Source of the DNA: Halococcus agarilyticus | Lineage (GTDB): Archaea; Halobacteriota; Halobacteria; Halobacteriales; Halococcaceae | Direction of reading: 5' to 3' | Length of the DNA: 64,000 nt | Assembly (NCBI RefSeq): GCF_000334895.1 | Contig: NZ_BAFM01000008.1 | Span: 1-64,000, forward strand | In this document: in pieces, positions 1-16,246 of the stretch | How the letters are laid out: every line of letters starts with the position of its first letter | How positions within the stretch are numbered: position 1 is the stretch's first letter | The notes under the pieces: generated by a model | Database searches by the model: none | Told to the model about the DNA's origin: nothing | Seen by the model: only the letters and a program-made list of their open reading frames with translations | Position numbers and translations under genes: made by a program

Positions 1-1014
1 CTTTCTGTAGATCTTCCCAGAAGTGTTCTCTCCGACCTGTATTTTCCCGAAAGTCAAGATGATGAAATCGTCAACCAGATTTCTTCAGCACTCAACGCTG
101 GCAAACACATTATTCTTACTGGCCCACCGGGGACCGGAAAAACCGAAATCGCGAGGCTTGTCTGCAAACATCTTGCCGACAAATATGATTCATTGTATAC
201 TGGTTATCGGGTGACGACCGCAACCGCGGACTGGTCAACGTTTGAGACTATTGGTGGTTATATGCCGGAGAAAGGCGACGGGGATCTTGGGTTTGAACCC
301 GGTCAAGTACTCAGACGATTCAGGCAAAACGGCGTTCAACAGAATGAGCCGCTCATCGTTGACGAAATCAACCGTGCGGATATCGACAAATCGTTCGGTC
401 AACTGTTTACCCTCCTGTCTGGACAAGGCGTTCAATTGCCGTTCAAACACGACGGAAACGAGATCGAAATTCTCCCGGGAGAGAATTTCGATGAGGAGCC
501 CGAAGCACACCAATACGTGAAACCAGCATCATGGCGACTATTCGCAACCATGAACAGCTACGACAAAACCTCGCTGTATGAACTCTCATACGCATTCATG
601 CGACGATTCTCTTTCATACACGTTGACGCACCAGACGTTCCGGAAGCAAGTGATGAACAGCTTGCGCTAATGGAACAATACGCCGAAGTATGGGACAAAT
701 CGCTGAGTGATGATGCGCTCCGTACCGTAGGCGAGGTGTGGCACGCAGCCAACACGGCCATCCAGAACAGAAAAATCGGCCCAGCCATTATTGAGGATAT
801 CCTCACCACTCTTGAACAGGCCCCAGATGATTCTGCTGCCCGTAAACGGCTTCTCACACAAGCAATCGCGAACTATCTCTACCCACAGCTGGAAGGTGTT
901 CCGTATCGGAAACGGATGGTTGAACAAATCATCTCTACTGGAGCAGTAAACGGTCAAGTCCTACGGAGACTCGCAAACGACATACTTGATATCGATCTCG
1001 ATACGAATGAATAG
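1..1014 (+). CDS. mcrB: McrB-like AAA+ restriction NTPase, 5' end outside window
   Basis: This is the motor subunit of a modification-dependent (type IV) McrBC-like restriction system. Its reading frame is open from base 1, so the true start lies to the left and the methylated-DNA-recognition domain, if present, is not visible. A Walker A motif GPPGTGKT is encoded at 121-144, a Walker B-like LIVDEINRAD follows at about 352-381, and a sensor motif MNSYDKTS precedes an arginine-rich YAFMRRF. This Walker A / DEINR / MN-x-x-D order is typical of the McrB family. The ATG at 193 falls inside the AAA domain and is not the start. The stop overlaps the start of the McrC-like gene, so the two are translationally coupled. 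The region is much more AT-rich than the rest of the window (26 of the first 60 bases are G or C by hand count), which points to lateral acquisition. Confidence 0.85.
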   Translation, partial: LSVDLPRSVLSDLYFPESQDDEIVNQISSALNAGKHIILTGPPGTGKTEIARLVCKHLADKYDSLYTGYRVTTATADWSTFETIGGYMPEKGDGDLGFEPGQVLRRFRQNGVQQNEPLIVDEINRADIDKSFGQLFTLLSGQGVQLPFKHDGNEIEILPGENFDEEPEAHQYVKPASWRLFATMNSYDKTSLYELSYAFMRRFSFIHVDAPDVPEASDEQLALMEQYAEVWDKSLSDDALRTVGEVWHAANTAIQNRKIGPAIIEDILTTLEQAPDDSAARKRLLTQAIANYLYPQLEGVPYRKRMVEQIISTGAVNGQVLRRLANDILDIDLDTNE

Positions 1015-2353
1015 AGACGAACTTCTCGATGAACTCACGCAGGACGTACTCGCGTACGTGATGCACGGGTCGTATCCTGAAAGTCAACTGATCCAGGAGG
1101 TCCGACCAGTTGGTCTTGACGAACGGTTTGAAGATTTCGAGTCACTCGTACGTTTACACTTCGTACTCCGTCCAGAAGTCGTACAGTTCGTTGAGAAACT
1201 CCCTGATCGTCTTCGGAATGTCAAAACACAGACGGAAAACGTTTCGTCAAGACAACGAGGGCATGTGAGCGGGCGTATAGATTGGCCAGCGACACTTCGC
1301 GAGCGACACTCTCGCGCTCCGGGTGACTCCTCGCTGTTCGTTTGTAGAAATCGCTCGGAGAACTACGATATTCAGGAAAATCTCGTCTTGAAACGGCTCC
1401 TTTCGATTATCTACTGGACACTACGTGATTGCAGAGAGTATCTGCAGAGAGAGTATGAGTGGGTGACGGACCGATGGAAAGAGAACTTAGAGCTAGTAGA
1501 CGTGCTGATGGAGATATTTGAGCGCAATGTTCATATATCTCGTATTAGAGATCCGAAAGAATACGAACCGACAGAGCGAATGTTTCGTGCGGCCGAAAAG
1601 TCGCGAAGCGAGGTTTATCGACAGGCGGGCAGACTTCTCCGTGAATACAGCGAGGCAGCGGAGGGCGACGGAGAGTCGATCAGGGACCTGCTGAAGGAAA
1701 CAACGATTACACCTGATGACGACGAAACACTCCTTGAGTTGTTTGTCCTCTTCAAATTCATCAGAGTTATTGAGACCTTTCCTGGTGAAGACTTTCGGAT
1801 TCGAACTATTGTATCAGGGTCTCAGGAAGTAGCCCGAATGCAGAGTGATGATGCTGAGTTCGTACTCTACCACGATCAGTCGGGAAAAAATAGTGGGCTG
1901 AGTTTCGTCACAGCAGAGATGGACACACCACGGCCGGAGCTAAGTCGTGCAGAAATGGTCAAGAGAGAGGCTCAGGAGGTGACGACGCACTACTTTCAGA
2001 ACGAGGACTCCGTACGACGTACTAAACGGCCAGACGTGATTGTTCTAGAGATTCGGGAAAATGACCGACGTGAGTACTTGATCACAGAGGTAAAGAACTC
2101 CGTACGAAAAGAGACCATCCACCGAGGTGTCGAAGAAACTTTGGAATATATCGCATTTCTCCGACAGAATGGAGAGTTTGTTTTTGATCGTAGGACGGAT
2201 TTCTTCGGCTCGGGATGGAACGGCTTACTTGTGATCCAAGACATCAAAGACGAAGAAACGCGTGAGGTAGACGAACAACGCTCGATCCGTATTCTTCAAG
2301 CCTCAGAAGTCGAAGAGCGACTACAGGACGTTCTTGAAGCTATTGTCGACTGA
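1007..2353 (+). CDS. mcrC: McrC-like PD-(D/E)XK endonuclease subunit
   Basis: This is the probable nuclease partner of the preceding McrB-like motor, 448 residues long. Its C-terminal part holds a PD-(D/E)XK-type active site: RPD with Asp at residue 343, then E361-V-K363 in the strand LITEVKNS. McrC proteins cleave DNA when the McrB ring translocates. I chose ATG 1007 because it overlaps the mcrB stop by 8 bases (ATGAATAG) and gives the usual MNRDEL-like start. An upstream TTG at 986 is in frame but would overlap more. Base composition stays AT-rich to the end and switches to GC-rich within a few bases after the stop. The N-terminal half has no motif I can name, which is normal for this family, so McrC rests on the nuclease motif and partner gene. 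Confidence 0.8.
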   Translation: MNRDELLDELTQDVLAYVMHGSYPESQLIQEVRPVGLDERFEDFESLVRLHFVLRPEVVQFVEKLPDRLRNVKTQTENVSSRQRGHVSGRIDWPATLRERHSRAPGDSSLFVCRNRSENYDIQENLVLKRLLSIIYWTLRDCREYLQREYEWVTDRWKENLELVDVLMEIFERNVHISRIRDPKEYEPTERMFRAAEKSRSEVYRQAGRLLREYSEAAEGDGESIRDLLKETTITPDDDETLLELFVLFKFIRVIETFPGEDFRIRTIVSGSQEVARMQSDDAEFVLYHDQSGKNSGLSFVTAEMDTPRPELSRAEMVKREAQEVTTHYFQNEDSVRRTKRPDVIVLEIRENDRREYLITEVKNSVRKETIHRGVEETLEYIAFLRQNGEFVFDRRTDFFGSGWNGLLVIQDIKDEETREVDEQRSIRILQASEVEERLQDVLEAIVD

Positions 2354-2366
2354 ACACAGCGAATAA

Positions 2367-2864
2367 GCGGAGGCTCACCGGGTCGGGCGGGCGACGGTCG
2401 AGCGCGAGAGCGAGCACACCGTCACCGTTCGGCTGACCGCGCGGTACAAGCCCGCGGCCGACGCCGGCGGGGCCGCGGACGGCGAGGCGGTCGAAACGGA
2501 CCGCTGGGGGTACACCGAGACCGAGGCGCTTCCCGCGCTGCGGGTGACCGATCTCACCGCGGACCAGGCGGACCTGATCTGTGCGTTCGTGCCGAGAGCG
2601 GTCGACGAGGCCGGCGGGTTCGCGGGCTTTCGCGAGACCGCGACGAAGACGAACTCGCTCGTGGATCGGTTGCGGGGACTGACGCTGCCCGAGCCAGGCG
2701 ACGTCGCCGAGGGCGTGGCGAGCTATCGCCGGACGAAAGAGCGCGCGGCGGAGCTGGACGAGCAGATCGAGCGCACCGACGAGTTGATCGACGAGATCGT
2801 GTACGAGCTGTACGGACTGACCGACGAGGAAATCGAGATCGTGGAGGAGGCAGTCGGGGAGTAG
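2367..2864 (+). pseudogene. C-terminal stump of an Eco57I/PglX-type DNA methylase
   Basis: An open frame of about 165 codons has no plausible start; a stop at 2364-2366 closes it upstream. It encodes the tail of a large haloarchaeal restriction-modification methylase. Recognisable segments are WGYTETEALPALRVTDL, the stretch ending FRETATKTNSLVDRL, and the final IDEIVYELYGLTDEEIEIVEE, a typical C-terminus of Eco57I-type/BREX PglX-like enzymes. The methyltransferase motifs and most of the target-recognition region are absent, so no enzyme activity is expected. A short product could start at the internal GTG at 2544 (106 residues), but I doubt it is functional. The stump is GC-rich (44 of 60 bases in 2581-2640 by hand count) and abuts the AT-rich mcrBC genes. 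The island therefore seems to have replaced the front of this gene. Assignment rests on remembered family sequence. Confidence 0.65.
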
Positions 2865-2914
2865 CGTCCGCGAGTGACTGAGCGAAGCGAGGCAGCGAGC
2901 GGCTCACCGGGTCG
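2372..2914. repeat. 14-bp direct repeat flanking the methylase stump
   Basis: GGCTCACCGGGTCG occurs at 2372-2385, exactly where the AT-rich mcrBC region ends, and again at 2901-2914, just after the stump stop codon. The match is perfect over 14 bases and ends abruptly on both sides. It may mark a recombination scar or a short target duplication. Confidence 0.7.
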
Positions 2915-2952
2915 AACCCGAAGTTCCCGCGAGCCAGAGGCGAGCGGGAGCA

Positions 2953-3260
2953 CGGAAGAGCTTCGCTCTTCCGGAGGGTGAGACTCGGCCTTTTTGATCG
3001 ATGTTTTTGTGCCGAGCGGTGCGAGGCGTGAACGAAGTGAGCGCCTCGATGCGAACGGCGAGGTACGAGCCGTGAACGGAGCGAGCGCACCCGAGGTGGT
3101 TCGAGACGCCTTCGGCGTCTCGTCACTAAGCGGGACCGAAGGTCCCGCGAGGTCGTCGGGCGGCGAAGTCGCCCGACTGCAAGCGATTCCTTCGGAATCG
3201 CACTGTCCAAAAGAGCCGAAGACTCTTTTGAGGATCACGAAAGACGCTTCGCGTCTTTCG
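2953..3260. repeat. Array of seven short hairpins with TTC/GAA triloops
   Basis: The gap between the methylase stump and the antitoxin gene carries seven separate inverted repeats: 2953-2973, 3102-3122, 3130-3148, 3155-3177, 3183-3201, 3209-3229 and 3239-3260. Each has a 7-10 bp stem closing on TTC or GAA, for example GCGGGACC-GAA-GGTCCCGC. Stem sequences differ from one another, so this is not a direct-repeat or CRISPR array. A longer stem, GCGAGGCG...CGCCTCG, lies at about 3021-3048 and belongs to a motif also seen near 15270. No gene is supported in 2865-3319. Confidence 0.75.
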
Positions 3261-3319
3261 AACGACGGAAAAACGTCGGAGCCGATGAAGTAAAAAGGTG
3301 GAGGCCGTAGAAACACCAA

Positions 3320-3553
3320 ATGGCGCGTTCCGAGCCGGCCGATTCCGACGACGATCTCGCCCACGCGGTTGGCCTGTATGCCCTCGGGGAGGTCAACGAG
3401 GGGAAGGCCGCGGAGATAGCGGGCGTCACGCGATGGGAGATGCGCGACATCCTCGAAGACGCCGGTCTCGAACTCCGTCATGGCCCACGAACGGTCGCCG
3501 GAGCGCGCGACGACGCGGGCCTCGCTCTCGACGAGAACGGTAATGGCGAATGA
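3320..3553 (+). CDS. UPF0175-family antitoxin-like protein
   Basis: A 77-residue acidic protein of the UPF0175 type, a family of small DNA-binding antitoxins paired with PIN-domain toxins in archaea and cyanobacteria. The core is ALGEVNEGKAAEIAGVTRWE followed by MRDILEDAGLELRHGP, a short helix-turn-helix in which the second helix carries the characteristic R-W/x-E segment. Its last codons overlap the first 11 bases of the toxin gene at 3543, the usual antitoxin-first arrangement. It would neutralise the toxin and repress the pair. The toxin frame is broken, so the antitoxin may be an orphan. Confidence 0.75.
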   Translation: MARSEPADSDDDLAHAVGLYALGEVNEGKAAEIAGVTRWEMRDILEDAGLELRHGPRTVAGARDDAGLALDENGNGE

Positions 3554-4039
3554 GCTTCGCTCGCCGGTCGTTCTCGACGCGACAGTGCTCTCGAACCTCG
3601 CCATCACCGACGATGTCGACCGTCTCGATACGCTTCCGGCCCGTTTCGTGACCGTCGAAGCAGTCACGGACGAGCTTCGGACGGACTCGAAGCGGGGTAC
3701 GATCATCTCGATCGGGCGATCGGCGCGACGGACGTGATCGCCGTCGAAAGCGAACCGGGAAACGACGTACTCGATCACCTCGATCGCGGGGAGTCGTACG
3801 CACTTGCCGCCACACGGGAGCGTTCAGGAACGCTCGCAACGGACGATCGTCCAGCGCGCGAGCTCGCGGCCGAACGCGACGTCGAACTCACTGGCTCAGT
3901 CGGTATTCTCGTTCGGCTCGTTCTCCGCGACGAACTCTCGGTCAGAGAGGCGGATGGGATTCTCGAACGGTGGGTCGAAGCGGGCCGCTACCGCTCTCCC
4001 GTCGAAAGCGTTCGTGAGGTCCTCGAACGAAGCGAGTGA
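3543..4039 (+). pseudogene. PIN-domain (DUF3368/VapC-like) toxin, frameshifted
   Basis: The front half reads from ATG 3543 (VVLDATVLSNLAITDDVDRL, then the motif FVTVEAVTDELRT). After codon RG it runs into a premature stop near 3737. The rest continues in another frame from about 3700 to 4039: YDHLDRAIGATDVIAV, then GESYALAATRE, GTLATDDRPARELA and a C-terminal helix. The two halves join perfectly if one G is added to the G4 run at 3694-3697, giving KRG-YDHLDRAIGATD. PIN acidic residues are all present across the join: D in LLDAT-like LDAT, E in VTDE, E in GES, D in TDD. The product would be a PIN ribonuclease toxin of the DUF3368 type. It is either a true pseudogene or a homopolymer sequencing error; the intact second half favours recent loss or error. 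Confidence 0.75.
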
Positions 4040-4068
4040 ACCGAAGTCGGTGGATCGAACCACGCGCC

Positions 4069-4674
4069 TCACACTGGAAAGTCGGCGTCGGGATCGACCA
4101 CCCGATCCGGCTCGTCGGGCACGCGCCAGTCGGTCGTGAGTTCGAGAAGCTGGGCGAGGATGCGCCCGGTAGCCCCCCACACCACGTACTCGTCGACCCG
4201 GAAGAAGTGAAGCCGGATCTCGCCGTAGTATGGGTGATCGCGGCGTTCGGAGTCGTAGTTCGCCGGATCGGTGAGTGCCGCCACCGAGAGAACTGCAACC
4301 TCGGCGACCTCGCGCTCGTCGGGGACGTACTCGCGGTCGGGAACGCGGGCGACGAACGGCCGGACCGCGTACTCCGTCACGGTCCGGATGTCGTCGAGCC
4401 GGCCGACCACCTCGGCGGTCGCCGGATCGAGCCCGATCTCCTCGTTCGCCTCCCGGAGCGCGGTCGCGGTGAGGTCCTCGTCGCTCGGTTCGCGACCGCC
4501 GCCGGGAAAGCTCATCTGGCCCGGATGCTCGCCGAGGTGGTCGGCGCGCTTGGTAAAGAGGAGATGCGGCCCGTCCCCGCGGGTGATGACCGGCGCGAGC
4601 ACGGCCGCCTCCCGCTGCTCGTCGGTGACCGCCGTGGCCGCGTACCGAGCCACCCGCGCGAGGTCCATATCCAC
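4069..4674 (-). CDS. Nudix hydrolase, CoA pyrophosphatase type
   Basis: A 201-residue Nudix enzyme predicted to hydrolyse coenzyme A or its derivatives to 4'-phosphopantetheine and 3',5'-ADP. The Nudix box GX5EX7REUXEEXGU is complete (G60, E66, R74-E75, E78-E79, G81). The preceding LLFTKRADHLGEHPGQMSFP at residues 38-57 is the UPF0035 signature that separates NudL/Nudt7-type CoA pyrophosphatases from other Nudix enzymes. It ends just after the toxin remnant, convergent with it, and starts at ATG 4674, 18 bases downstream of the DUF7109-like gene, so the two are probably co-transcribed. Substrate is inferred from the signature only. Confidence 0.85.
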   Translation of the reverse strand: MDMDLARVARYAATAVTDEQREAAVLAPVITRGDGPHLLFTKRADHLGEHPGQMSFPGGGREPSDEDLTATALREANEEIGLDPATAEVVGRLDDIRTVTEYAVRPFVARVPDREYVPDEREVAEVAVLSVAALTDPANYDSERRDHPYYGEIRLHFFRVDEYVVWGATGRILAQLLELTTDWRVPDEPDRVVDPDADFPV

Positions 4675-4692
4675 CGGACGTACCGCCGGGGC

Positions 4693-5244
4693 TTAATTCG
4701 TCCGTTCGTCGATCTCGGCCGTGACGCTCTCGGCGCGCTCGTCGGCCGCATCCGTCTCCATCGTCGCGTCGTCGAGCCGGTCGCGAACGCCGCCGAGTTC
4801 GACCGGGGCCCACGCTTCGAGATCGTAGCTCACGTCCAACAGCTGGGAGATCCGCGCGTGGTCGTCGTCCGCGACCGCCCGCGCCGCGTCGGCACGAAAT
4901 CGCTCCTCGGCGACGGCCCCGAGCGCCGCACGGTCGACCTCGCGCGGCTCGATATCGAGGATGTGTGGGAGGTCCTCGGCCCGGTCGGGAAGTGTCGGAA
5001 ACGCCGTCGGACCGACGGCGAGCAGCGGTTCGTCCGCGGTCGGCTCCGACTGCGTCCCAGCGAGGTCCATGGGATCGATCGCGACGAGCCGGTAGGCCGT
5101 GATCGCGTCGTCGAACGCGCCCTCCGGTTCGAACTCGGTGCCACGCTTGAACGCGAGCTCGTCGCACGCCTGGAGTAGTTCGGGACGGGTGAGCGCCCCG
5201 AACAGGTCGACCACGCCCGCGAGCTCGTCGTGGCTGAACTCCAT
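4693..5244 (-). CDS. Haloarchaeal conserved protein, DUF7109-like
   Basis: An acidic 183-residue protein that I recognise as a family confined to haloarchaea (DUF7109 as I recall it). No catalytic motif is visible. The N-terminus MEFSHDELAGVVDLFGALTR and the segment ELAFKRGTEFEPEGAFDDAI look like helices of a small regulatory or scaffold protein. The C-terminal tail is very acidic. ATG 5244 was chosen because the family begins with this motif; the frame stays open further upstream but that part is arginine-rich and non-acidic, unlike a haloarchaeal protein. It lies between the glycosyltransferase and the Nudix gene on the same strand with short gaps. Function unknown. Confidence 0.7.
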   Translation of the reverse strand: MEFSHDELAGVVDLFGALTRPELLQACDELAFKRGTEFEPEGAFDDAITAYRLVAIDPMDLAGTQSEPTADEPLLAVGPTAFPTLPDRAEDLPHILDIEPREVDRAALGAVAEERFRADAARAVADDDHARISQLLDVSYDLEAWAPVELGGVRDRLDDATMETDAADERAESVTAEIDERTN

Positions 5245-5270
5245 CGCGAGGCGTTTCGACGGGGCGTCGT

Positions 5271-6392
5271 TTAGCCCTTGGCGTCCGGCGTCGGTCCACT
5301 GCCTGTGGCGGCCGCGAGATCCGCTCGCGCCGCCTCGCGAACTCGCTCGGGATCGAGAGCTGTGTCTGCCCACGCCGGGAGCCTGGTGTCTGCACCCGGT
5401 GGTTCGATCGCCGCGGCGTACCGCGAGACCTGGTCGCGCTCGGCCGCCCGGTCGTAGTCGAGCCCGTTGTGCGCGGCGTCGGCGGCGTACTGGTCGACGA
5501 GCGTCCCCGCGGCGCTCTCGTAGCGCGCGGGGAGCGTCTCGTATGCCGGTTCGACGCCGTGTTTCTCGATCGTGCGAAAGACCGCCGCGCCGACCGCGCG
5601 GCTCATCGCCGCCAGCCCCGCCGACCCGCCGACGTCGCGGTGATCGTGGACGTGGGTGCCGAGGTCTACTTGAGCAGTGCCCGCGAACCCCACGGCGTCG
5701 AACGCGGCCCCGAGCGTGTCGATTTCGAGCCCCCACTCCCGACTCACCCGGAGCCGGCGCGCGAGATCGGCCGTGAGCGCGACCTCGCCCGCGAGCGCGT
5801 ACCGGAACGAATCGAGATAGGAGAGGATCGCCGCGTCGTGGCGCTCGGCGAGCGCGCACACCAGGGGCGTGTAGAACAGCCGAAACAGCCGGCCGAACAG
5901 TCGATTGCGCTCGATGCGGGCGTAGTACCCCTTCACGAACCCGAACTCGTCCGCGAGCGGCGCGAGCAGCGTGGGAACGTCTCCCGCCGAGTACGAGGTC
6001 GCGTCGGCGTCGTGGATCACGACGTACTCGGTGTCGAGCGCGGCGACCCCGAGCGCCAGCCAGACGTCCCGCCCTTTGCCCTGTGCGCCGTCGAGACCGT
6101 GCTCGGCCAGGAGCGCCCGCACCCGCCGGCCGCCACACCAGAGCGTCTCGACCGGATCGAACGCCCCGAGCCACGCGTCGAACGCGCCGACGTTCTCGGG
6201 CTCGGTCCGGAGCGCGACGAGCACCCGTTCGGGGTCGACGTCCGCGAGCGTCGAAAGGACCCGCTCGGCCGCCGGCGTCCGGTACTCACGGTCGGTCATC
6301 GGCACGACGACGGTCGCCCGGTCGGTGGGCGCGTCCGGGACGGCGTCGCCGAAGTCGTGCAGCGTCGCGATCCGCTCCTGGACGTACTCCAC
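5271..6392 (-). CDS. Glucosyl-3-phosphoglycerate synthase-like glycosyltransferase
   Basis: A GT-A fold glycosyltransferase of about 373 residues, similar to the glucosyl-/mannosyl-3-phosphoglycerate synthases that begin synthesis of glycerate-based compatible solutes. The sugar-nucleotide region GKGRDVWLALG (residues 105-115), the metal-binding H127-D128-A-D130 and FGFVKGYYAR (about 150-159) match that group. GTG 6392 gives the start VEYVQERIATLHDFGD, which is how relatives begin; the open frame continues upstream to 6563 but is compositionally non-coding. It would act in the cytoplasm using an NDP-sugar donor. A phosphatase partner is not adjacent, so the exact donor and acceptor are inferred from the family. 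Confidence 0.75.
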   Translation of the reverse strand: MEYVQERIATLHDFGDAVPDAPTDRATVVVPMTDREYRTPAAERVLSTLADVDPERVLVALRTEPENVGAFDAWLGAFDPVETLWCGGRRVRALLAEHGLDGAQGKGRDVWLALGVAALDTEYVVIHDADATSYSAGDVPTLLAPLADEFGFVKGYYARIERNRLFGRLFRLFYTPLVCALAERHDAAILSYLDSFRYALAGEVALTADLARRLRVSREWGLEIDTLGAAFDAVGFAGTAQVDLGTHVHDHRDVGGSAGLAAMSRAVGAAVFRTIEKHGVEPAYETLPARYESAAGTLVDQYAADAAHNGLDYDRAAERDQVSRYAAAIEPPGADTRLPAWADTALDPERVREAARADLAAATGSGPTPDAKG

Positions 6393-6780
6393 GGCTACGC
6401 TCCCCGTCCGGCCGTCGTCACGATCGGCGACCGGTCGGCGCACAGCAGCGCGCGTCGTCCAGTCGCGACGATCGTTCGACCGGACATCCGATGCGGAACC
6501 GACGGACACAGCAGGCCGGACGGCGGGCTCCGTGACACGGTTGTCGGTACGCGGAGCGCACAATCAAGCCTTCCGGAACGCGTCGTGGTCGTCGACCCGT
6601 GGGGTCGGCGACACGGTCAGTTCTCGACGGTGGCGTCGTGAAAAGGCACGGGAGATGATGCCAGGGCAACGGACCGGATCCCGTGCGCACGGAACCAGAG
6701 GCGGTTCCACTCGAACGGACGATCCCCACCATTCAATACTTACTCCCTGCATCGTGTGTCACGTCGTGAAACATGTGTCA
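6393..6780. other. Intergenic stretch without a supported gene
   Basis: About 390 bases. Open frames here are extensions or shadows with non-haloarchaeal composition. I see no RNA gene. TTCAATACTTACT near 6733-6745 is the only AT-rich patch and could be a promoter element, but no gene starts downstream of it on the plus strand. Confidence 0.5.
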
Positions 6781-6799
6781 CCCTCCGAACAGCGGAGGG
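6781..6799 (-). terminator. Hairpin directly after the FilR1-type regulator gene
   Basis: CCCTCCG-AACAG-CGGAGGG forms a perfect 7-bp stem with a 5-base loop, one base beyond the stop codon of the leftward gene ending at 6801. Position suggests an mRNA 3'-end structure; there is no clear T-run, so termination is an inference. Confidence 0.4.
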
Positions 6800-6800
6800 G

Positions 6801-7610
6801 TCACTCCTGTGGAACCGGGGCGTCGGCGCGCGTGGCGGCGCTCCGGTGGTCGTCGTAGACGCCGCACGCCCACGTTCGGAGCGTCTCGTCGGTGCTGTCG
6901 AGACACTCGCGAAGGACGCCGCGCTCGTCGTGCGTGCTGATCAGCACGCGCTCGTCGAAGACCGCGAGACCGAACGCGAGGTCGTCGGGGTACAGGTACA
7001 GCGTGAAGTTGTCGAGCGAGTAGGCGTCGTCGAGTGCCTCCTCGTAGTCGGTCGAGGAGGTCTCGAACACCGACTCGTCGATGAGCATCTCCATCTCCGT
7101 GTCGGTGGCGATGAGTTCCTGGGCGGCCTCGTTGAACCGCGGGCTGACGACTCCCGAGATGGCGTAGAATTTCTCGGTCGTGGTCGTCGCGAGCCCGTCG
7201 GCGAAGTGGGCGGCCGCCGCGTGGGGGTTTTCGGGCGTGCTCGTCACGAGGGTCGCCTCCGAGAGCGCGGCGAGCGGGAGCGTAGTGGCGAGGTCGCCGA
7301 GCCGATTCAGGAACGGCCCCCACTCGTCCACCCGGTCGATCGCGGATTCGAGCGCCGCGTAGTGGCCGAGAACGAGGTCACCACCGACGGTGAGGCGGTA
7401 CTCGCCGTCGATCTGTTCCACCCAGCCTCGGTCGGTGAGCCCGTCGAGCGCGCGGTGGACGGTCGAGCGCGACAGGTCGCACGCCTCGGTGAGTTCGCAC
7501 TGGCGGTGGGGCTGCTCGCGGAGCGTTTCGAGGATCCGCACCCGGTTCGCCGAGCCGGCCAGAAACGCGACGTGCTCGCGCGGTCCCATTGGTTCGGACC
7601 TCTTGGACAT
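6801..7610 (-). CDS. Winged-helix regulator with FilR1-type C-terminal domain
   Basis: A 269-residue transcription regulator. The N-terminal 80 residues form an ArsR/IclR-like winged helix (FLAGSANRVRILETLREQP, then CELTEACDLSRSTVHRAL as recognition helix, then WVEQIDGEYRLT). The remainder resembles the methanogenesis-regulator FilR1 middle domain common in archaeal regulators, with FYAISGVVSPRFNEAA and a long acidic sensor region ending in CLDSTDETLRTWA. The start at ATG 7610 follows a haloarchaeal pattern (MSKRSEP); ATG 7589 is an alternative. It stands alone between an aldo/keto reductase on the same strand and a gap. Its ligand and targets cannot be deduced here. Confidence 0.75.
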   Translation of the reverse strand: MSKRSEPMGPREHVAFLAGSANRVRILETLREQPHRQCELTEACDLSRSTVHRALDGLTDRGWVEQIDGEYRLTVGGDLVLGHYAALESAIDRVDEWGPFLNRLGDLATTLPLAALSEATLVTSTPENPHAAAAHFADGLATTTTEKFYAISGVVSPRFNEAAQELIATDTEMEMLIDESVFETSSTDYEEALDDAYSLDNFTLYLYPDDLAFGLAVFDERVLISTHDERGVLRECLDSTDETLRTWACGVYDDHRSAATRADAPVPQE

Positions 7611-7675
7611 GACGGTATATGTCTTTTGGAGGCCTGGGAGGAAAGTCACATCCGACCCACGAGTCGAGGGCTCGC

Positions 7676-8764
7676 TCACTCGAACGTCGCGTCGAACGCG
7701 TCCGCCCCCATCGCGTCCGCCCGCCCCGAATCGACGTTCGCCACGACGTGTTCCGGACTGCGCATCCCGACGAGCGCGCACGTCACGCCAGGCCCCGAGC
7801 GCGCGAACGTGAGCGCCTTCGCGGCCGGCGTGTCGCCGTCGAGTCGGTCGGCGACGTCGGTCGGGATTTCGTCCGCGAGGCGACCCTGAGCGAGCGGGGC
7901 GCTCACGAACACGTCGAGTCCGGCCTCGCGTGCGAACCGGAGCGCACTTTGGGGGCCATCGGGCCCGTCGTGGGCCGCGACGGTGAACGCGTCGGCCATG
8001 ACGACGTTGAACGGGAGCTGAACGGCGCGAAAGTGAGTCGCGTCGTTGCCCGCGGTCCGGGCGGCGTCGCGGGCGCGCGAGACGACCTCCGGGAGCGAGA
8101 GGTGGTTCGGATCGTCGGGTGCGACACGGAACGCGTCCCACGTCGCGACGCCGTAGTGTCGGAGGTCCCCCACAGCGGCACGCTCCTCGAGCCTCGCGAA
8201 CGTCGCCTCCAGATCGTCGTAGACGGCCCCACGCGAGCGCTCGTCGAGCTGGAACTCGGGGTTGTGGACGTAGTAGCAGTCGACCGTCTCGATCCCGAGG
8301 TTCGCGAGCGAACGGTCGAGCTGATCGTCGACGAACGCGGGCGCGAGGCAGTGCATTCCGCGAACGAGGTCGTCGGGGTCGATGATCCCGCTCTCGACGT
8401 ACTCTTCGCGGACGAACTTTCCGGGGTCGTCGGGTCGCTCGCCGTCGAAGGGGACGAACCCGCCCTTGGTGGCGATCGCCACCGCGTCGCGATCGACCTC
8501 GGCGGCATCGAGCGCGCGCCCGACGACCCGCTCCGAACGCTGGTGACGGTAGTTGATCGCGGTGTCGAGCACGTTGATCCCGGATTCGAGCGCCCGCACG
8601 ACCGAGGCGTGGTACGAGTCGTCGACTTCGTCAGTTGGGTCGCCGAGGTAGGTGCCGAGGCCGATGCTGGAGACGATGCAGTCGCCGAAGCGCCGGAAGT
8701 ACGTCCGGCCGAATTCTTCAGTATGGCGGTCGCGGTACGCCCACGTCGCCTCGCTGGTTGCCAT
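7676..8764 (-). CDS. Aldo/keto reductase
   Basis: A 362-residue NAD(P)H-dependent oxidoreductase of the aldo/keto reductase superfamily with a TIM-barrel fold. The catalytic tetrad is visible: D67 in VLDTAINY, Y72, K100 in AIATKGG and His in CYYVHNPE. The N-terminus SSIGLGTYLGDPTDE and the C-terminal cofactor region (ALTFARSGPGVTCALVGM) fit the AKR11/12-like bacterial and archaeal group. In haloarchaea these are usually annotated generically; the substrate (aldehyde, sugar or ketone) cannot be read from the sequence. It ends 65 bases before the FilR1-type regulator start, so the two could share a transcript. Confidence 0.85.
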   Translation of the reverse strand: MATSEATWAYRDRHTEEFGRTYFRRFGDCIVSSIGLGTYLGDPTDEVDDSYHASVVRALESGINVLDTAINYRHQRSERVVGRALDAAEVDRDAVAIATKGGFVPFDGERPDDPGKFVREEYVESGIIDPDDLVRGMHCLAPAFVDDQLDRSLANLGIETVDCYYVHNPEFQLDERSRGAVYDDLEATFARLEERAAVGDLRHYGVATWDAFRVAPDDPNHLSLPEVVSRARDAARTAGNDATHFRAVQLPFNVVMADAFTVAAHDGPDGPQSALRFAREAGLDVFVSAPLAQGRLADEIPTDVADRLDGDTPAAKALTFARSGPGVTCALVGMRSPEHVVANVDSGRADAMGADAFDATFE

Positions 8765-8859
8765 GCGGGCGATTGGTGGCTCGTGGGGATATGCTGTCGG
8801 TCGGAGCGGCTACCGCGAGGTTCCGCGGGCCACTGTACTCGCGGGAGTTCGCCTGGACG

Positions 8860-9573
8860 TCACGGTGGGCGGTCGCCGACGACGAGCTCGGTTTCCACCA
8901 GCCGCTCGTGCGCACGCCGGAACCGCTCGGAGAGCGCCTGGTGGGAGATGTCGAGATCGTCGGCGAGATCGGCCGCCGTGATGTCGCGCGGGATCTCGTA
9001 GTATCCGGCCTCGAACGCAGTGAGAAGTGCCTCGCGCTGTTCGTCGGTCAGCTCCGACCGGGCCGACCCGCCACCGTCGAAAGTCGAAATCCTCCGGCAC
9101 TCGTCCCCACAATCGAGGTCGTCCATGGCGTCGTGCGCCCGTGCGATCCCGTCGCGGTCGGGAGCCAGCAGCCGGAGTTTCCATTCGCCGCCCGCCCCCC
9201 GCATGGACAGGAGCGTGACGTCCGCGGCGACGAGTCGTTGGATGAGCCGGCGGGGGCGACCGTCCCACGTCACCCGATACGTCCACCCGTCCGCGCGCTC
9301 GCCGAAGCGCTCGACCGCCGCGACCCCTGAATCGGATCGCAGTGCGGCGTCGACGGCGCGCTCGCGCTCCTCGGTCCGGACGACCAACAGCGCGTGGTCG
9401 TCGGGGTTGGCGATGGCGGCTTCGCACTCGACGCGCGCGTCGGGAACCCGCTCGAACAGGTCGGCGAGCGCGAACCCCTTCGCCGGAAGCACGAACTGTG
9501 CGGTGCTCGCGTCGGTGGATGTCGAGGGCGTCCGCGGCGTCGGGGCTCCCGCCGAATCGGTACGTTCGCTCAT
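8860..9573 (-). CDS. HTH-10 (bacterio-opsin activator-like) regulator
   Basis: A 237-residue regulator with the haloarchaeal HTH-10 domain at its C-terminus. From about residue 175 it reads LTDEQREALLTAFEAGYYEI, then PRDITAADLADDLDISHQAL and SERFRRAHERLV, the classical arrangement of this family. The N-terminal half is a variable sensor region resembling the Bat/BAT-like GAF-HTH proteins without a recognisable cofactor motif. The start ATG 9573 overlaps the stop of the upstream zinc micro-protein by 4 bases (ATGA), so they are translated as a coupled pair. A second HTH-10 gene lies at 9893-10543 on the same strand. Confidence 0.85.
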   Translation of the reverse strand: MSERTDSAGAPTPRTPSTSTDASTAQFVLPAKGFALADLFERVPDARVECEAAIANPDDHALLVVRTEERERAVDAALRSDSGVAAVERFGERADGWTYRVTWDGRPRRLIQRLVAADVTLLSMRGAGGEWKLRLLAPDRDGIARAHDAMDDLDCGDECRRISTFDGGGSARSELTDEQREALLTAFEAGYYEIPRDITAADLADDLDISHQALSERFRRAHERLVETELVVGDRPP

Positions 9574-9734
9574 TTGTTGGCATGCCGCGACGAATGTGCC
9601 TCACGGACTTCGGCCCCCGAGCGGAGTTTGTCCTCGCAGTTCGGACAGACGCGCACGTCGTCCATTCCCGTCGGGGCGAACACTCGCACGTACCGGTCGG
9701 TCACGAATCCCTTGCAGTTTTTGCAAGCGGGCAT
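9570..9734 (-). CDS. Zinc-ribbon micro-protein (DUF7563-like)
   Basis: A 54-residue protein with two CxxC pairs: CKNC near the N-terminus and CPNC at about residue 31, separated by a short basic/aromatic strand (VTDRYVRVFAPTGMDDVRV). This is a zinc-ribbon layout common among haloarchaeal micro-proteins (DUF7563 as I recall it). The tail is charged. Its stop overlaps the start of the HTH-10 gene downstream, so it may be an accessory to that regulator. The upstream region carries a TTACTAAAAC promoter-like element on this strand. Confidence 0.75.
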   Translation of the reverse strand: MPACKNCKGFVTDRYVRVFAPTGMDDVRVCPNCEDKLRSGAEVREAHSSRHANK

Positions 9735-9790
9735 GGTAAGCAAAGAGAACGGCCGACTATCGGATTGGGGTTGGCAGTACCCTTGTACCC

Positions 9791-9809
9791 GTTTTAGTAA
9801 GGGGGGGGG
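9791..9809 (-). promoter_or_regulatory. Promoter-like element next to a nine-base G tract
   Basis: On the minus strand CCCCCCCCC (9801-9809) is followed immediately by TTACTAAAAC (9791-9800), a TATA-like box about 60 bases before the micro-protein start at 9734. The C9 tract occupies the place of the BRE element, so length variation could alter promoter strength. Confidence 0.4.
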
Positions 9810-9892
9810 AATGAAACTCGAGTCGACCTCACGGTTCCGTGCTCGCTCAGGTCGGGACGTCGGCACAGTGGCTCGGCGTGGCGGCCGCGCGG

Positions 9893-10543
9893 TCAGCTGT
9901 CGAGCATGACCGTGTTGGCGAAGACGCGGTGGGTGCCGCGGTTGAGTCGACGGGCGAACGCCTGGCGGCTGATGTCGGTCGCCGTCCCGAGTTCGGTGAG
10001 CGAGGTGGTGCGGGGGACCTCGTAGTAGCCCGCCTCGAACGCGCGCGTGACCGCCTCGTGTTGTTTCGCCGAAAGCCCGAACTGAGGTTCGTCGGGCTCC
10101 TCGGGTTCGGGGTGGATCTCCTTCACTGTCACGGGAACGTCGTGGGTGAGGCAGTCGTCGTAGAACGACGAGAGCGCCTCGCGGTCGCCGGCACGAAGCG
10201 CGAAGGTCCATTCCTCGGCGGTGCCGGTGGCCCACTCGACGATGATCTCGTTGGTCGCGATCGCGGTGAGAAAGCCGTCGACGCCGTCGGCCCACTCGAT
10301 CTCGTAGAGGACCTTCCCGGCGAGACCGTTGAGCCTGGTGAGCGCGCCGACGATCGGGTCGTCGCGGACCGTCGCCTCGAACGATTCGATGTCGCCGTCG
10401 AAGTTCGTGACCCAGAAATGCGGCAGGGGATCGTCGGTGATGGCGACGAACTCGCTGAGTTCGATCTCGGCGGCCGTGCCCGTGAACACCTGCCCGAGTT
10501 CGAAGCCCCCGGCCGGCAGGCTGATGCGCGCGATGACGCTCAT
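9893..10543 (-). CDS. HTH-10 (bacterio-opsin activator-like) regulator
   Basis: A 216-residue regulator with a C-terminal HTH-10 domain: LSAKQHEAVTRAFEAGYYEV, then PRTTSLTELGTATDISRQAF and ARRLNRGTHRVF. The N-terminal part (MSVIARISLPAGGFELGQVF and following) is the haloarchaeal bacterio-opsin-activator N-terminal fold that often precedes HTH-10. ATG 10543 is the start because that motif begins most relatives; the open frame extends further but is non-coding in composition. It is related in layout to the HTH-10 gene at 8860-9573 but is not a close duplicate. Target genes are unknown. Confidence 0.85.
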   Translation of the reverse strand: MSVIARISLPAGGFELGQVFTGTAAEIELSEFVAITDDPLPHFWVTNFDGDIESFEATVRDDPIVGALTRLNGLAGKVLYEIEWADGVDGFLTAIATNEIIVEWATGTAEEWTFALRAGDREALSSFYDDCLTHDVPVTVKEIHPEPEEPDEPQFGLSAKQHEAVTRAFEAGYYEVPRTTSLTELGTATDISRQAFARRLNRGTHRVFANTVMLDS

Positions 10544-10811
10544 CGGTCTACCGCTCCCTCCCGTTCCGATCGGTGATACTGCGATTCGTGCGGGCGGCCG
10601 TCGTGTGTGGTGCGTGCATCGGTAGATCACCGTGCTGAGCTCGCTCTTGGAATGGAGAATTCCCCTGCCTGCCTCCCCACGGCCGGCCGGTTGTCCGCGC
10701 TGGGAACGCCCATCAGTGTGACTGCAAGTCCCGTACTGAATGGCAAGGGGTTGCATACGTAAAGGTGCTGTGACAACTGTGGGTTACAGCGTCGGTGAAA
10801 TCGGGGACGCA

Positions 10812-10985
10812 CTACTCGTCGCGGAGTTCGCTGTCGACGTGGTGGCCGGTTTCGGTGGCGTGCTCGATGGCGAGTGTGCCGAGTTCGTGACGATCGTGGT
10901 CCTCGATGCTGGCGGACCACTCGCAGTCGTGGCAGTAGTTGCACTCGACCCAGCGCACACGAGTCGCTACGCCGCCCTCCCTCAT
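10812..10985 (-). CDS. Small CxxCxxC zinc-binding protein
   Basis: A 57-residue acidic protein (65 if started at 11009). It contains CNYCHDCEW followed by a histidine-rich helix with H-x-LGTLAIEHATETGHH, a spacing suited to one zinc ion (C2-C2-C then H). Such short proteins are frequent in haloarchaea and are mostly uncharacterised. The ATG at 10985 gives MREGGVATRVRW; the upstream ATG at 11009 is also possible. It stands alone between a regulator and an SDR gene, all leftward. Confidence 0.6.
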   Translation of the reverse strand: MREGGVATRVRWVECNYCHDCEWSASIEDHDRHELGTLAIEHATETGHHVDSELRDE

Positions 10986-11065
10986 TGTAGTTCGTGTTGC
11001 ATATGTCACCGGTTCATACGCAGCACGTCGATCGGACCGGCGCGAGAGGGCTGTAAACTATCGCC

Positions 11066-11956
11066 TCATCCACCCCGGTACGCGTCGATCGCCGCCCGGT
11101 AGCCCTCGCGGTAGGTCGGGTACGTGAGTTCGTAGCCGAGATCGCGGAGCCTGTCGTTCGCACACCGTTTCGAGGTCTCGATACGCCGTCGTGCAGCGTC
11201 CGAGAGATCGCCGTCTTCGAGGCGCTCGGCTTTCGTTCGCTTCTCGGGGCGCGGAACGTCGCACTCGTCGGCGAGCCAGTCGGCGAAGGCGTGCTTCGAG
11301 ACGGGTTCGTCGTCGACCACGAGCACCGTGTCGTCGCGGGCGGCGTCGGCGTCGAGGAGGAACCGGATCGCGCCGGCGGCGTCGTCGCGGTGGATCATGT
11401 TGAGATAGCCCGCCGTCACGGGGCCATCGAGGTAGCGATCGAGCCGGTAGCGGTCGGGGCCGTACAGCCCCGCGAACCGCGCGACCGTTCCCGCAATACC
11501 GTGATCGCTGGTTTCCTCGCGGGCGATTCGCTCGGCTTCGGCGAGCACCTCTGTCTTCTCGGTCGTCGGCTCGATCGGGGTGTCCTCGTCGACCCAGCCG
11601 CCGTCGTGATCGCCGTAGACGCCGGTCGAGGAGGTGTAGACCAGGCGGTCGGGCGCGTGGTCGCGCGCGCCGAAGACCCCGATCGCGGTCCGGAGGCCGT
11701 CCACGTAAATCTCGCGCGCAGCGTCGGCCCCTCGCCCGCCCGAACTCGCCGCGAACACCACGGCGTCGACGTCTGGAACGCGCGCGAGGGCGTCGGGATC
11801 GGTGACGTCCGCTTGGATGGCCTCGAACCCGGCGTGTTCGATCCGTTCGACGCCGTCCGCCGAGCGGCGCACCCCGACGACGTCGTGATCGGGTGCGAGC
11901 TGGCGACCGAGTTCGAGGCCGACGTAGCCACACCCCAAAACGACGACGCGACTCAC
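11066..11956 (-). CDS. NAD-dependent epimerase/dehydratase-family (extended SDR) protein
   Basis: A 296-residue Rossmann-fold enzyme. The cofactor loop GCGYVGLELG (G8, G10, G13) starts almost at the N-terminus, and the middle has YTSSTGVYGDHDGG, where the Ser and Tyr correspond to the SDR active site although the Tyr-x-x-x-Lys is atypical. ADVTDPDAL and FAASSGGRG fit extended SDRs of the YeeZ/YbjT-like group acting on unknown nucleotide-sugar or related substrates. The start overlaps the stop of the DUF5791 gene by 4 bases, indicating a shared transcript. Substrate not deducible. Confidence 0.8.
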   Translation of the reverse strand: MSRVVVLGCGYVGLELGRQLAPDHDVVGVRRSADGVERIEHAGFEAIQADVTDPDALARVPDVDAVVFAASSGGRGADAAREIYVDGLRTAIGVFGARDHAPDRLVYTSSTGVYGDHDGGWVDEDTPIEPTTEKTEVLAEAERIAREETSDHGIAGTVARFAGLYGPDRYRLDRYLDGPVTAGYLNMIHRDDAAGAIRFLLDADAARDDTVLVVDDEPVSKHAFADWLADECDVPRPEKRTKAERLEDGDLSDAARRRIETSKRCANDRLRDLGYELTYPTYREGYRAAIDAYRGG

Positions 11957-12378
11957 GGTTTGCGCTCCTCGATGTAGCCGTGGATCGTGGCGAGTTCGTC
12001 GAGGTCCATCGGGAGCCGGCCCTCGATCTTCTGCTGGATCTCGCGGGCGTCGAGCGCGCCGTCGATCCCCGATTCGACCGCCTCGACGTCGAGCACGGCG
12101 GTGGTCATCCCCATCAGGAGGTGATCGCGGGTTTCGAGCACGATGGCCTCCGCGTCGGGTTCGTCCTCACTCACGGAGAGGATCGCCGCTGCCTCTTCGA
12201 GCGTGAGTTCGGGTGATTCGCCCTCGGCGAGCACGTCGACCGGTTCGCTCGCGACGCCAGCCTCGTCGGCGACGACCTCGACACCGTGTTCCTCGATCAC
12301 GGTCCGGAGGCGCTGGTCGTAGCGCGCGCGGAGTTCGTCGGGCGAGAGACTGCCCGCATCGTCGACGTCGTGGAGCAT
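11953..12378 (-). CDS. DUF5791-family protein
   Basis: A 141-residue acidic protein recognisable as haloarchaeal DUF5791: MLHDVDDAGSLSPDELRARY, a helical core with LTLEEAAAILSVSEDEPDAE, and DHLLMGMTTAVLDVEAVE followed by a short C-terminal helix. No enzymatic motif. ATG 12378 is preferred because the family begins here and because CACTTACG about 25 bases upstream could serve as its own TATA box. The frame stays open a further 163 codons upstream, where a different protein fragment is encoded (see 12379-12867). It overlaps the SDR gene by 4 bases. Function unknown. Confidence 0.7.
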   Translation of the reverse strand: MLHDVDDAGSLSPDELRARYDQRLRTVIEEHGVEVVADEAGVASEPVDVLAEGESPELTLEEAAAILSVSEDEPDAEAIVLETRDHLLMGMTTAVLDVEAVESGIDGALDAREIQQKIEGRLPMDLDELATIHGYIEERKP

Positions 12379-12867
12379 ATTCGGAGTACCGCTCGCCGAC
12401 GTAAGTGAATTGAGTTCGGTCGCGGAGCGGGCGGCGAACGCGTCGTCGTAGCTCGCGATGCGCCCCAATCCCTCGATCAGCCCCGTTGTGGCGGCGAACT
12501 CCGCAACGGGTCCGGTGCGGCCGGCCGCGACGCGGGCCGCACCGAGCGGGTCGCCGAGTGCGCGCGCCGCCAGCGCCTGATCGTGGCCTGCGGCGAGCGC
12601 GACGAACCGGTCGGCGGCGATCAGCAGCGCCGTTGCCCCGTCGTCGTAGACGTACTCCCCGGTCTCGATCCGGGTTCGCACGCTGGCGACGGACCGGCCG
12701 ACGAGTGCGCCGACGACACTCGCACGACAGGCAGGGCTCGCCGCCAGACGACCCTCCTCCGGGCAGTCGGTGGCGTCGACGACGAGTCGGTGACCCTCGA
12801 TGCGTGGCTCACAGCCGCAGTCGTCGACTCGTCTGCCCGCTATCGACTGGCCCGACGCATCCTGCAT
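12379..12867 (-). pseudogene. Possible N-terminal fragment of a secretion/pilus ATPase, fused in frame to DUF5791
   Basis: From ATG 12867 the frame runs without a stop into DUF5791. These 163 residues contain CGCEPRIEGHRLVVDATDCP and CRASVVGALVGR, then ALLIAADRFVALAAGHDQAL and DPLGAARVAAGRTGPVAEFA. I recall this pattern from the N-terminal domain of haloarchaeal GspE/PilB/TadA-type ATPases. No Walker A, Walker B or His box follows; the segment simply gives way to DUF5791. It may be a truncated gene remnant or a real lineage-specific fusion. The identification is from memory and only moderately secure; the in-frame continuity is certain. Confidence 0.4.
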
Positions 12868-13310
12868 GCCGCACGGTGGCTTCGGCTTCCGATTTGAACC
12901 TTCGCCGGCAGCGGTTGGGTGGTTGTAGTGCGGCCGCGGTCGCGGTGCGGTCCCTGGCGTCCCGACGAGCGTAGCGAGTCGGGGCTCAGGAGAGTTTGCT
13001 CTCCTGGTGGATGAAGGGCGAGCGAACGGAGTGAGCGAGGGCTTCGGCGGTGCTGTGCGGTGGCGGTTGCGGGGAGCGCCAGCAGTCGTACCCCGAGTGA
13101 GCGCGAAGTCGTCCGAAACGGCTTCGCCGTTTCGTGATGCCGAAAATCGCGGCGCGATTTTCGGACCACGCGAACGAGCGGGTGTTTTTAGTCGAGGTTT
13201 TTTGCAAGGTCGTACGGAACGGCGGAGCCGTTCCGTGATGCCAGAAATCTCTGATTTCTGAGCACCCCGAGGGAGCGAAGTGACCGAGTGGGGACGAAGT
13301 AAAAAAGTCG
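12868..13310. repeat. Second hairpin array in a gene-free gap
   Basis: About 440 bases without a gene. Perfect short inverted repeats lie at 12987-13006 (CAGGAGAG-TTTG-CTCTCCTG), 13114-13134 (CGAAACGGC-TTC-GCCGTTTCG), 13140-13164 (CCGAAAATCGC-GGC-GCGATTTTCGG), 13215-13235 (CGGAACGGC-GGA-GCCGTTCCG) and 13242-13260 (CAGAAATC-TCT-GATTTCTG). The pairs 13114-13164 and 13215-13260 form a repeated unit: hairpin, spacer with GTGATGCC, hairpin. The stems differ in sequence but the design is the same as at 2953-3260. Confidence 0.75.
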
Positions 13311-14657: not shown

Positions 14658-14744
14658 GGGGCGGCTACTCCCGAGGGGCACAAAGAACGTTCGTTTCGGC
14701 ATCACCCCTCACGGCGTCGGGACTGTCGGGGAGCCGTCGCGCGG

Positions 14745-14888
14745 TCAGTGCTCGCCGAGCGGCTGTCCACAGGCCGGACAGCGCGCTGTCCCGTCGTCCG
14801 CGTCGTCGGATTCGGGCGCGAGACTTTCGGGAACCACCGTCAGGTGATGCAAGCCAGCAGCGGGACGTTTTGCGGCCATCACGACCAT
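14745..14888 (-). CDS. CPxCG zinc-finger micro-protein
   Basis: A 47-residue reading frame (44 from the second ATG at 14879). It ends with a single RCPACGQPLGEH motif after an acidic stretch (PESDDADDGTAR). One CPxCG unit per chain is typical of haloarchaeal micro-proteins that bind zinc as dimers or share a site. A TTAGAATTAT-like element near 14921-14930 on the minus strand is at a promoter distance from ATG 14888. It is 88 bases upstream of the phosphatase gene and could be co-transcribed with it. Confidence 0.6.
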   Translation of the reverse strand: MVVMAAKRPAAGLHHLTVVPESLAPESDDADDGTARCPACGQPLGEH

Positions 14889-15001
14889 CGCTACGGCTCC
14901 CGTCCTCAAAAGACTACCCATAATTCTAACACATTCGCCCCGACACCTGCATAACCGTGAGGAATACGAGGGTTTTCCCCGGCGGAACTCGTCGGTCGAG
15001 T

Positions 15002-15214
15002 ATGTTCGAGCGAAACGTCGGTGGCTTCGATCGGATCGCTCGCGGCGTGGTAGGCACGTGCCTCGTCGCGGTCGCGTTCGGCGCGCTTCGCGCCGATCGG
15101 CGCTCGATGGCGGTCGTCGCGGCGCTCGGGAGCGCCGGCCTGCTGTTCAACTTCGCCACGGCGCGCTGTGGGTTGAACAAGCTGCTCGGTGTCGACACCT
15201 GTCCGCGGGAGTGA
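15002..15214 (+). CDS. DUF2892/YgaP-like small membrane protein
   Basis: A 70-residue protein with two predicted membrane helices: VVGTCLVAVAFGAL (about 16-29) and SMAVVAALGSAGLLFNFATA (about 35-54). Its pattern NVGGFDRIARGVVG, ending in CGLNKLLGVDTC, is the DUF2892 (YgaP membrane-domain-like) signature; the two cysteines are conserved in this family. ATG 15002 begins MFERNVGGFDR, the usual start. It is monocistronic, facing away from the micro-protein gene. Function of the family is not well defined; some members are joined to rhodanese domains. Confidence 0.8.
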   Translation: MFERNVGGFDRIARGVVGTCLVAVAFGALRADRRSMAVVAALGSAGLLFNFATARCGLNKLLGVDTCPRE

Positions 15215-16061: not shown

Positions 16062-16212
16062 CGACCGAACCTGCACGAGGCAGCCAAAAAGTATTTTCTG
16101 TTCGCCCTGCACCGGTGAGTATCGACCGCGATGACGGGGTACTCCCCAAGAATATTCCTCGGTTGTAGCAGTATTCGCCGCTGAAATCGGCAGTTCGCGA
16201 TTGCGGTTGCAA

Positions 16213-16222: not shown

Positions 16223-16246
16223 AGACGGATGACATATCTTGCTTCG

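Follow-up and report, generated by a model that had tools for sequence, protein, structure and literature searches.

The closest described relatives of the element studied here are the REP/BIME and other repetitive extragenic palindromes of bacteria (PMC3733652, PMC2817692, PMC12306157), which are short, intergenic, present in high copy number and often clustered into mosaic arrays. GTAG-type REPs are expected to carry GTAG at one end of the palindrome, and CGTC-type REPs combine a terminal CGTC with loops of 4-5 bp. The text of the RepRanger survey names no "Halo..." species. A related process is template-switch mutation, or quasipalindrome correction, which homogenises the two arms of a palindrome, changes its stem in matched pairs and inverts the loop or spacer (PMC8794818, PMC7202029, PMC8604942). 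Matched changes and inverted loops are both among its footprints, but in rRNA data loop inversions are very rare and mostly affect near-self-complementary tetraloops, with the loop being functionally constrained there (PMC8794818). Relevant to the loop itself are the d(GCGAAGC)/GNA DNA minihairpins, whose C-G-closed GNA triloops are described as extraordinarily stable (Yoshizawa 1997, cited in PMC6479982). According to the citing paper, GAA triloops surpass GTA triloops in stability (PMC6479982). The motif is known mainly from biophysical and aptamer work. Our literature search, which was confined to open-licence papers, found no published description of haloarchaeal hairpin arrays, and an earlier report is possible.

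The array described here lies in a 64,000-nucleotide stretch of DNA from Halococcus agarilyticus, hereafter the window. Over several kilobases, this genome is 81-83% identical to an 8-kb piece of Halococcus morrhuae. A sequence-only reading of the window had noted seven near-perfect hairpins with TTC or GAA loops at 2953-3260, and all seven were located at those coordinates (Table 1), with stems of 8-10 bp, five of them perfect and two near-perfect. The centre of every one is 5'-CTTCG or 5'-CGAAG, that is, a TTC or GAA triloop whose closing pair is always C-G. Two additional hairpins have the same centre but contain tandem G.A mismatches, and one of these, the eighth hairpin, sits in the ~128-bp gap between hairpin 1 and the remaining six. 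The array is bordered by a predicted ORF ending at 2864 on one side and a UPF0175-family gene (3320-3553) on the other, and no tRNA genes were found in positions 1-20000 of the window.

Table 1. Positions and make-up of the hairpins and dispersed modules in the window
Feature	Positions	Strand	Make-up and copies
G.A-type imperfect hairpin	2868-2902	+	core CTGAGC-GAA-GCGAGG; pairs outward C-G, G-C, A.G, G.A, T.G, C-G; contains GAGCGAAGCGAG
Dispersed ~60-bp module with perfect hairpin 1 at its end	2918-2978		copies 82-93% identical in several intergenic regions
Hairpin 1	2953-2973		CGGAAGAGC-TTC-GCTCTTCCG; 9 bp, perfect
Dispersed many-copy module	3013-3094		copies 72-89% identical; includes GTGAACGAAGTGAGCGC
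Eighth hairpin	3022-3048	+	CGAGGCGTGAAC-GAA-GTGAGCGCCTCG; tandem G.A pairs on GAA strand; outer symmetry 3011-3059
Homologous hairpin module	3096-3267		copies: 87% identical on contig 11 (L033 4095-4266), 83% in another Halococcus (G002)
Hairpin 2	3102-3122		CGAGACGCC-TTC; 9 bp, perfect; homologous position elsewhere CGAGAGAGC, CGAAAGACGCC, CGAAAGGCGC and others
Hairpin 3	3130-3148		GCGGGACC-GAA; 8 bp, perfect
Hairpin 4	3155-3177		GTCGGGCGGC-GAA-GTCGCCCGAC; 10 bp, one G.T; loop of contig-11 copy TTC
Hairpin 5	3183-3201		GCGATTCC-TTC; 8 bp, perfect; copies: GAA (inverted) in two, TGC in one
Hairpin 6	3208-3230		CAAAAGAGCC-GAA-GACTCTTTTG; 10 bp, one C.A; contig-11 copy with TTC loop and perfect stem
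Hairpin 7	3238-3260		CGAAAGACGC-TTC; 10 bp, perfect; contig-11 copy CGAAAGGCGC-GAA (two-arm change and loop inversion)
Second cluster	13114-13236		CGAAACGGC-TTC (13114-13134); ACGGAACGGC-GGA (13214-13236)
Further copy of the 3013-3094 module	15264-15340		82% identical

The surroundings of the array offered several separate observations. To its left, at 2354-2864, the ORF piece 2544-2864 matched nothing in Pfam and may be what is left of a gene. Further downstream, past the UPF0175 gene, the overlapping ORFs 3546-3737 and 3734-4039 look like a single frameshift-broken toxin-like gene, neither half of which had a Pfam match at E<=0.001. Several arrays (window 3287-3303; L021 17435, L024 17130, L029 11375, L022 14090) end, beside the neighbouring gene, in a short motif resembling AGTAAAAAAGTGGGT, which perhaps terminates transcription where the array stops.

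Abundance was measured in 864 kb of the same genome (66.8% G+C, about a quarter of the total), made up of forty 20-kb stretches and the window. This sample was partly picked around BLAST matches, with contig 1 (320 kb) as its unselected part. The assembly is a draft of 3.48 Mb in 58 contigs that is 97.9% complete, and coding and intergenic DNA were separated with a simple hexamer gene finder (84% coding). The sequence-only reading had staked its case on an excess over shuffled and coding sequence, and the excess over both was large. Intergenic DNA held 157 perfect triloop hairpins with stems of at least 7 bp, compared to 17.6 in Markov-3 shuffles, and 106 of the 157 had a C(GNA)G loop, where 0.8 were expected. 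By loop, the observed and expected intergenic counts were 71 and 0.4 for C(GAA)G, 23 and 0.3 for C(GGA)G, and 6 and 0.05 for each of C(GCA)G and C(GTA)G. No intergenic GNA loop in this sample was closed by G-C instead of C-G. Strong hairpins occurred at 94 of 764 intergenic CGAAG/CTTCG sites vs. 11 of 2931 coding sites. With longer stems, there were 92 perfect C(GNA)G hairpins of at least 8 bp in the sample (27 in the unselected contig 1) and 52 perfect GAA/TTC triloop hairpins of at least 9 bp, a stem length at which the order-3 Markov shuffle lists no GAA loop. Other loop sizes showed little intergenic excess (tetraloops 19 vs. 11.8, hexaloops 17 vs. 11.9), and 100 kb of Escherichia coli had no excess of triloop hairpins (8 vs. 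6.6).

The statement that the loops are always TTC or GAA thus holds for the seven hairpins of the array and is too narrow for the genome, where the rule is C(GNA)G on either strand. This is the C-G-closed GNA loop of the DNA minihairpins, with GAA the most frequent form; a motif known mainly from biophysics and aptamers appears here as a natural sequence signature across a genome. The energy parameter sets used score all triloops equally, with no GNA bonus, and the claim of stability rests on the literature. We also considered reading CTTCGG as a UUCG tetraloop and rejected this because the arms are symmetric about a three-base loop and tetraloops show no enrichment.

The hairpins belong to larger units that are scattered through the genome. 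A BLAST search with 2900-3320 returned 51 matches in the genome of origin and matches in 18 of the 21 genomes searched, including all ten from Halococcus. The matches are mosaic: the segments 2918-2978, 3013-3094, 3096-3267, 3118-3176, 3159-3235 and 3234-3266 each recur in differing company. Every hairpin of the array falls into a class that recurs elsewhere in the genome inside mosaic modules of 60-175 bp, and neighbouring hairpins are most often spaced 5-7 nt apart. Within the array the stems are indeed unrelated, as described in the sequence-only reading, but every one of them has its class elsewhere. Similarly, ordinary duplication, which that reading had dismissed, did occur, as modules are duplicated throughout the genome; what duplication alone cannot explain are the inversions and matched stem changes described below.

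As a type, the modules extend across the haloarchaea. The sequence GAACGAAGTGAGC from the 3013-3094 module was present in 46 of 59 genomes of the order, while its backward-read control was almost absent. For GAGCGAAGCGAG we counted 89 copies in the genome of origin. Four other haloarchaea had 7-24 copies each, and a further 36 genomes of the phylum had 0-4; these counts have no reversed control as this sequence reads identically backward. When 84,980 species genomes were searched for exact matches to CGRRAGAGC-TTC-GCTCTYYCG, 78 titles among the 80 matches listed name haloarchaea, and the loci taken from the matches listed contained 160 other C(GNA)G hairpins vs. 0 in shuffles. The C(GNA)G hairpin pattern recurs in many other haloarchaeal genomes, one of them a single contig.

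Individual arrays differ between relatives. The presence of an array at orthologous loci varies among Halococcus species, and most orthologous intergenic regions carry different arrays, as at the 14.4-kb array locus of L019, where relatives have different ones. An array adjoining a tRNA-Gln-like gene has four hairpins in genome G000 and two in G008, and is absent in G002. At L019 16340-16830 (with L061 and L071), a hairpin array lacking in G002 lies between the two copies of a 12-bp direct repeat, CACCACGGGACT. This repeat could mark the insertion or deletion of the array, and its sequence also coincides with the end of the tRNA-Gln-like gene next to it (tRNA identity read from sequence).

Homologous copies of the modules differ most visibly in the direction of their loops. 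In the copies of the 3096-3267 module on contig 11 and in G002, the order of the hairpins is unchanged and several loops are inverted. Hairpins 4 and 6 (GTCGGGCGGC-GAA and CAAAAGAGCC-GAA) both have TTC loops in the contig-11 copy, hairpin 7 (CGAAAGACGC-TTC) reads CGAAAGGCGC-GAA there, and hairpin 2 has the same TTC loop on a CGAGAGAGC stem in place of CGAGACGCC. To extend this comparison, every perfect C(GNA)G hairpin was paired with every other through its 20-bp flanks. The loop was inverted in 48 of 122 flank-matched pairs in Halococcus, 33 of these with an identical stem, and in 23 of 35 independent groups; in other haloarchaea the figures were 148 of 362 pairs and 23 of 35 groups. The inverted share changed little with flank identity, at 12 of 27 pairs with 39-40 of 40 flanking positions identical, 29 of 83 at 36-38, 35-40% at 32-35 and 39-45% at 28-31, bearing in mind that these pairs are not independent and that the top bin is small for Halococcus (1 of 5 inverted). 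Stem differences, by contrast, climbed with flank divergence, from 2 of 27 pairs with 39-40/40 flanks to about three quarters. Because the inverted fraction is flat across flank divergence and near saturation early, inversion appears to be fast relative to substitution, and loops would turn over faster than their flanks, as judged by comparing homologous copies. With ~40% of comparable pairs inverted, and this within a single loop class, the picture differs sharply from the rarity of inversions in rRNA and fits little constraint on orientation. Relative to genes, tandem intergenic regions had 28 GAA and 25 TTC loops, with no bias.

The stems change as well, and they do so on both arms together. 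A class of the form GGTT-hairpin-TCA has 32 copies, collected less strictly than the flank-matched pairs, in which the requirement for perfect stems inflates stem perfection. These copies have 14 different 5' arms, a GNA loop in 16 and a TNC loop in 16, and only 3 imperfect stems. Among its twelve distinct 9-bp members, 5 of the 9 pairs had changed on both sides and 0 on one side, and the covariation score was 0.438 compared to 0.169 in shuffled and at most 0.123 in slid controls. Copies of hairpin 3 include one with a GGA loop and one reading GCGGGAAC-GAA-GTTCCCGC, which is a two-arm change. An orthologous hairpin beside the tRNA-Gln-like gene reads GAAAACCC-TTC in G000, GCAAATCC-TCC in G002 and GCAAATCC-TAC in G008.

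A separate repeat, in which GGCGCGCGGGA and GACTCGTGCGAGGGATGA enclose a 7-bp stem with a GAA or GGA loop, kept a constant loop orientation in the copies seen, and its stems show matched changes (GTGCGCC, GCACGCC, GGGCGTC, GTGCGTC). It occurs in the genome of origin at L024 15692, L026 16071, L030 7508, L040 14330, L051 16137 and L052 10453, and also in L062, L070, L110 and L111, and is a candidate structured RNA or bound DNA site. The existence of a family with loops of fixed direction counts against the DNA-level explanation given below.

Taken together, we consider it reasonably probable that the array is one copy of a family that is organised like REP/BIME elements, and that DNA-level reactions create its palindromes, maintain their perfection and turn them round. 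The modules of this family are mosaic, lie between genes and code for nothing; they occur in Halococcus and, at the level of type, throughout the haloarchaea. When such a region became single-stranded during replication or repair, C-GNA-G would fold abruptly into a DNA minihairpin of great stability. Template switching by a host polymerase across the two arms may follow, or the cruciform may be cut and rejoined. A single switch would copy one arm onto the other and restore a perfect palindrome, and the loop would be turned whenever the switch spanned it. The module backbone may have spread by recombination or by some other route. A templated process, one of the suggestions of the sequence-only reading, is therefore the best fit to the matched two-arm stem changes and the frequent loop inversion in homologous copies. 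Its suggestion of a recombination-prone element was right in part, in that the modules form dispersed mosaics whose presence varies from one Halococcus species to another. We found no reverse transcriptase (PF00078) in this draft genome, and a search for a Y1 transposase (PF01797) gave no match there while being positive in Haloferax volcanii; the chemistry is therefore likely the host's own. Copying at the DNA level does not need a functional role for the hairpins.

One observation is left largely unexplained by template switching. A second type of hairpin has the form 5'-Py-GA-N-C-GNA-G-N'-GA-Pu-3', with tandem G.A pairs on the GNA strand. The GA...GA arrangement around C(GNA)G occurred 201 times in Halococcus where 59 were expected, and 222 times in other haloarchaea where 82.5 were expected. 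The inner N-N' pair was Watson-Crick in 75% of the Halococcus cases (G-C 77, A-T 48, C-G 24) and 71% of those in other haloarchaea, but in only 24% for the other-strand equivalent, TC...TC around C(GNA)G. The outer bases were Py..Pu in 89-90% in Halococcus and 72% elsewhere. PyGAPu is the sequence context of sheared tandem G.A pairs in DNA, and the haloarchaeal hairpins appear to share both its flanking Py/Pu bases and its GA/GA arrangement. To judge by these base preferences, hairpins of this type should fold well only as the GNA strand. They retain mismatches that arm-to-arm copying should erase, and therefore the structure itself may be under selection. Among the observations that fall outside the template-switch model this type is the chief one, and it makes the strongest case for selection acting on the folded strand.

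It is accordingly conceivable, though we think it improbable, that the hairpins are selected DNA-structure sites, in which a host protein acting in nucleoid structure, topology, replication or recombination recognises hairpins or cruciforms, so that the fold is selected and the stem sequence drifts. Inversion would be tolerated because a palindrome looks alike from both strands. The G.A type, keeping its structure on one strand, and the preference for 5-7-nt linkers between neighbouring hairpins both favour such sites, and the restriction to GNA could likewise reflect selection rather than mutational bias. Still, the corresponding locus of a related species often lacks the array or has another in its place, which makes no single array look indispensable; no hairpin-binding protein is known; and selection alone leaves loop inversion between pairs with near-identical flanks unexplained. 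A stronger proposal, which we hold to be rather unlikely, is that of an active haloarchaeal DNA-hairpin system, in which C(GNA)G minihairpins would form in vivo and a dedicated or recruited enzyme would recognise and process them, inverting loops and rewriting stems genome-wide. The arrays would then be DNA elements maintained by structure and not by sequence.

The hairpins could also be non-autonomous mobile palindromes moved by a hairpin-acting transposase, as REPs are thought to be moved by the RAYT (Y1) transposases. Their high copy number, dispersal and differing presence at orthologous loci would be in line with mobility, as would the 12-bp repeat flanking the array absent in G002, even though the adjacent tRNA gene likewise ends in a match to the repeat. 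However, the missing Y1 match, in a draft that is 97.9% complete and with Haloferax volcanii scoring positive, sets these hairpins apart from REP/BIME elements, and they have no general GTAG/CGTC tag: GTAG abuts only 7 of 113 hairpins, CGTC is near 11 of 113 with 9.1 expected, which is background, and the loops are 3 nt long. Instead of a conserved stem, they combine many unrelated stems with one conserved loop class and frequent loop inversion. Given also that the mosaic units have no fixed ends, we regard a transposase-driven origin as quite improbable.

Matched stem changes would ordinarily suggest RNA elements, such as 3' UTR stem-loops, terminators or small RNAs selected for RNA structure, and a family of RNA structures was another proposal of the sequence-only reading. 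Hairpins do lie near some haloarchaeal RNA 3' ends (PMC7237163), and convergent gene pairs have a modestly raised density of them (42 in 23 kb) compared to tandem (71 in 66 kb) or divergent regions (37 in 43 kb), an excess that may reflect promoter avoidance. Yet GAA and TTC are equally frequent on the sense strand, loops invert between homologues, UUCG and GNRA tetraloops are not enriched, and the aligned GGTT-hairpin-TCA class lacks one-sided changes of the G-U type. A search for intrinsic terminators (a GC-rich stem followed by a T run) found 0 sites in 2300-3600, and Rfam covariance models gave 0 matches with E up to 1. With orientation random and inverting, RNA-type loops absent, and neither terminator-like sites nor Rfam matches, an RNA role is disfavoured and, in our view, very improbable.

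Haloarchaeal DNA has a high GC content and abounds in CGA words, and this genome is a draft in 58 contigs, but order-3 shuffles and coding DNA yield almost no such hairpins and the same pattern is found in many other haloarchaeal genomes, one of them single-contig, which leaves an artefact of chance, composition or assembly barely credible.

Perfect stems and matched, or compensatory, changes are commonly attributed to selection acting on RNA. Here, matched stem changes and loop inversion occur in hundreds of natural palindromes from many lineages with no sign of RNA function, and the mutational share of stem evolution is therefore something that can be counted, and tested in genetically tractable haloarchaea. 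A further caution is that covariation in haloarchaeal intergenic regions does not, taken alone, indicate a structured RNA. The loop rule (GNA, closed by C-G, with no such role for tetraloops) links the process to DNA hairpins. In comparative terms, it would attest to the formation of a particular single-stranded DNA structure inside living cells at high salt.
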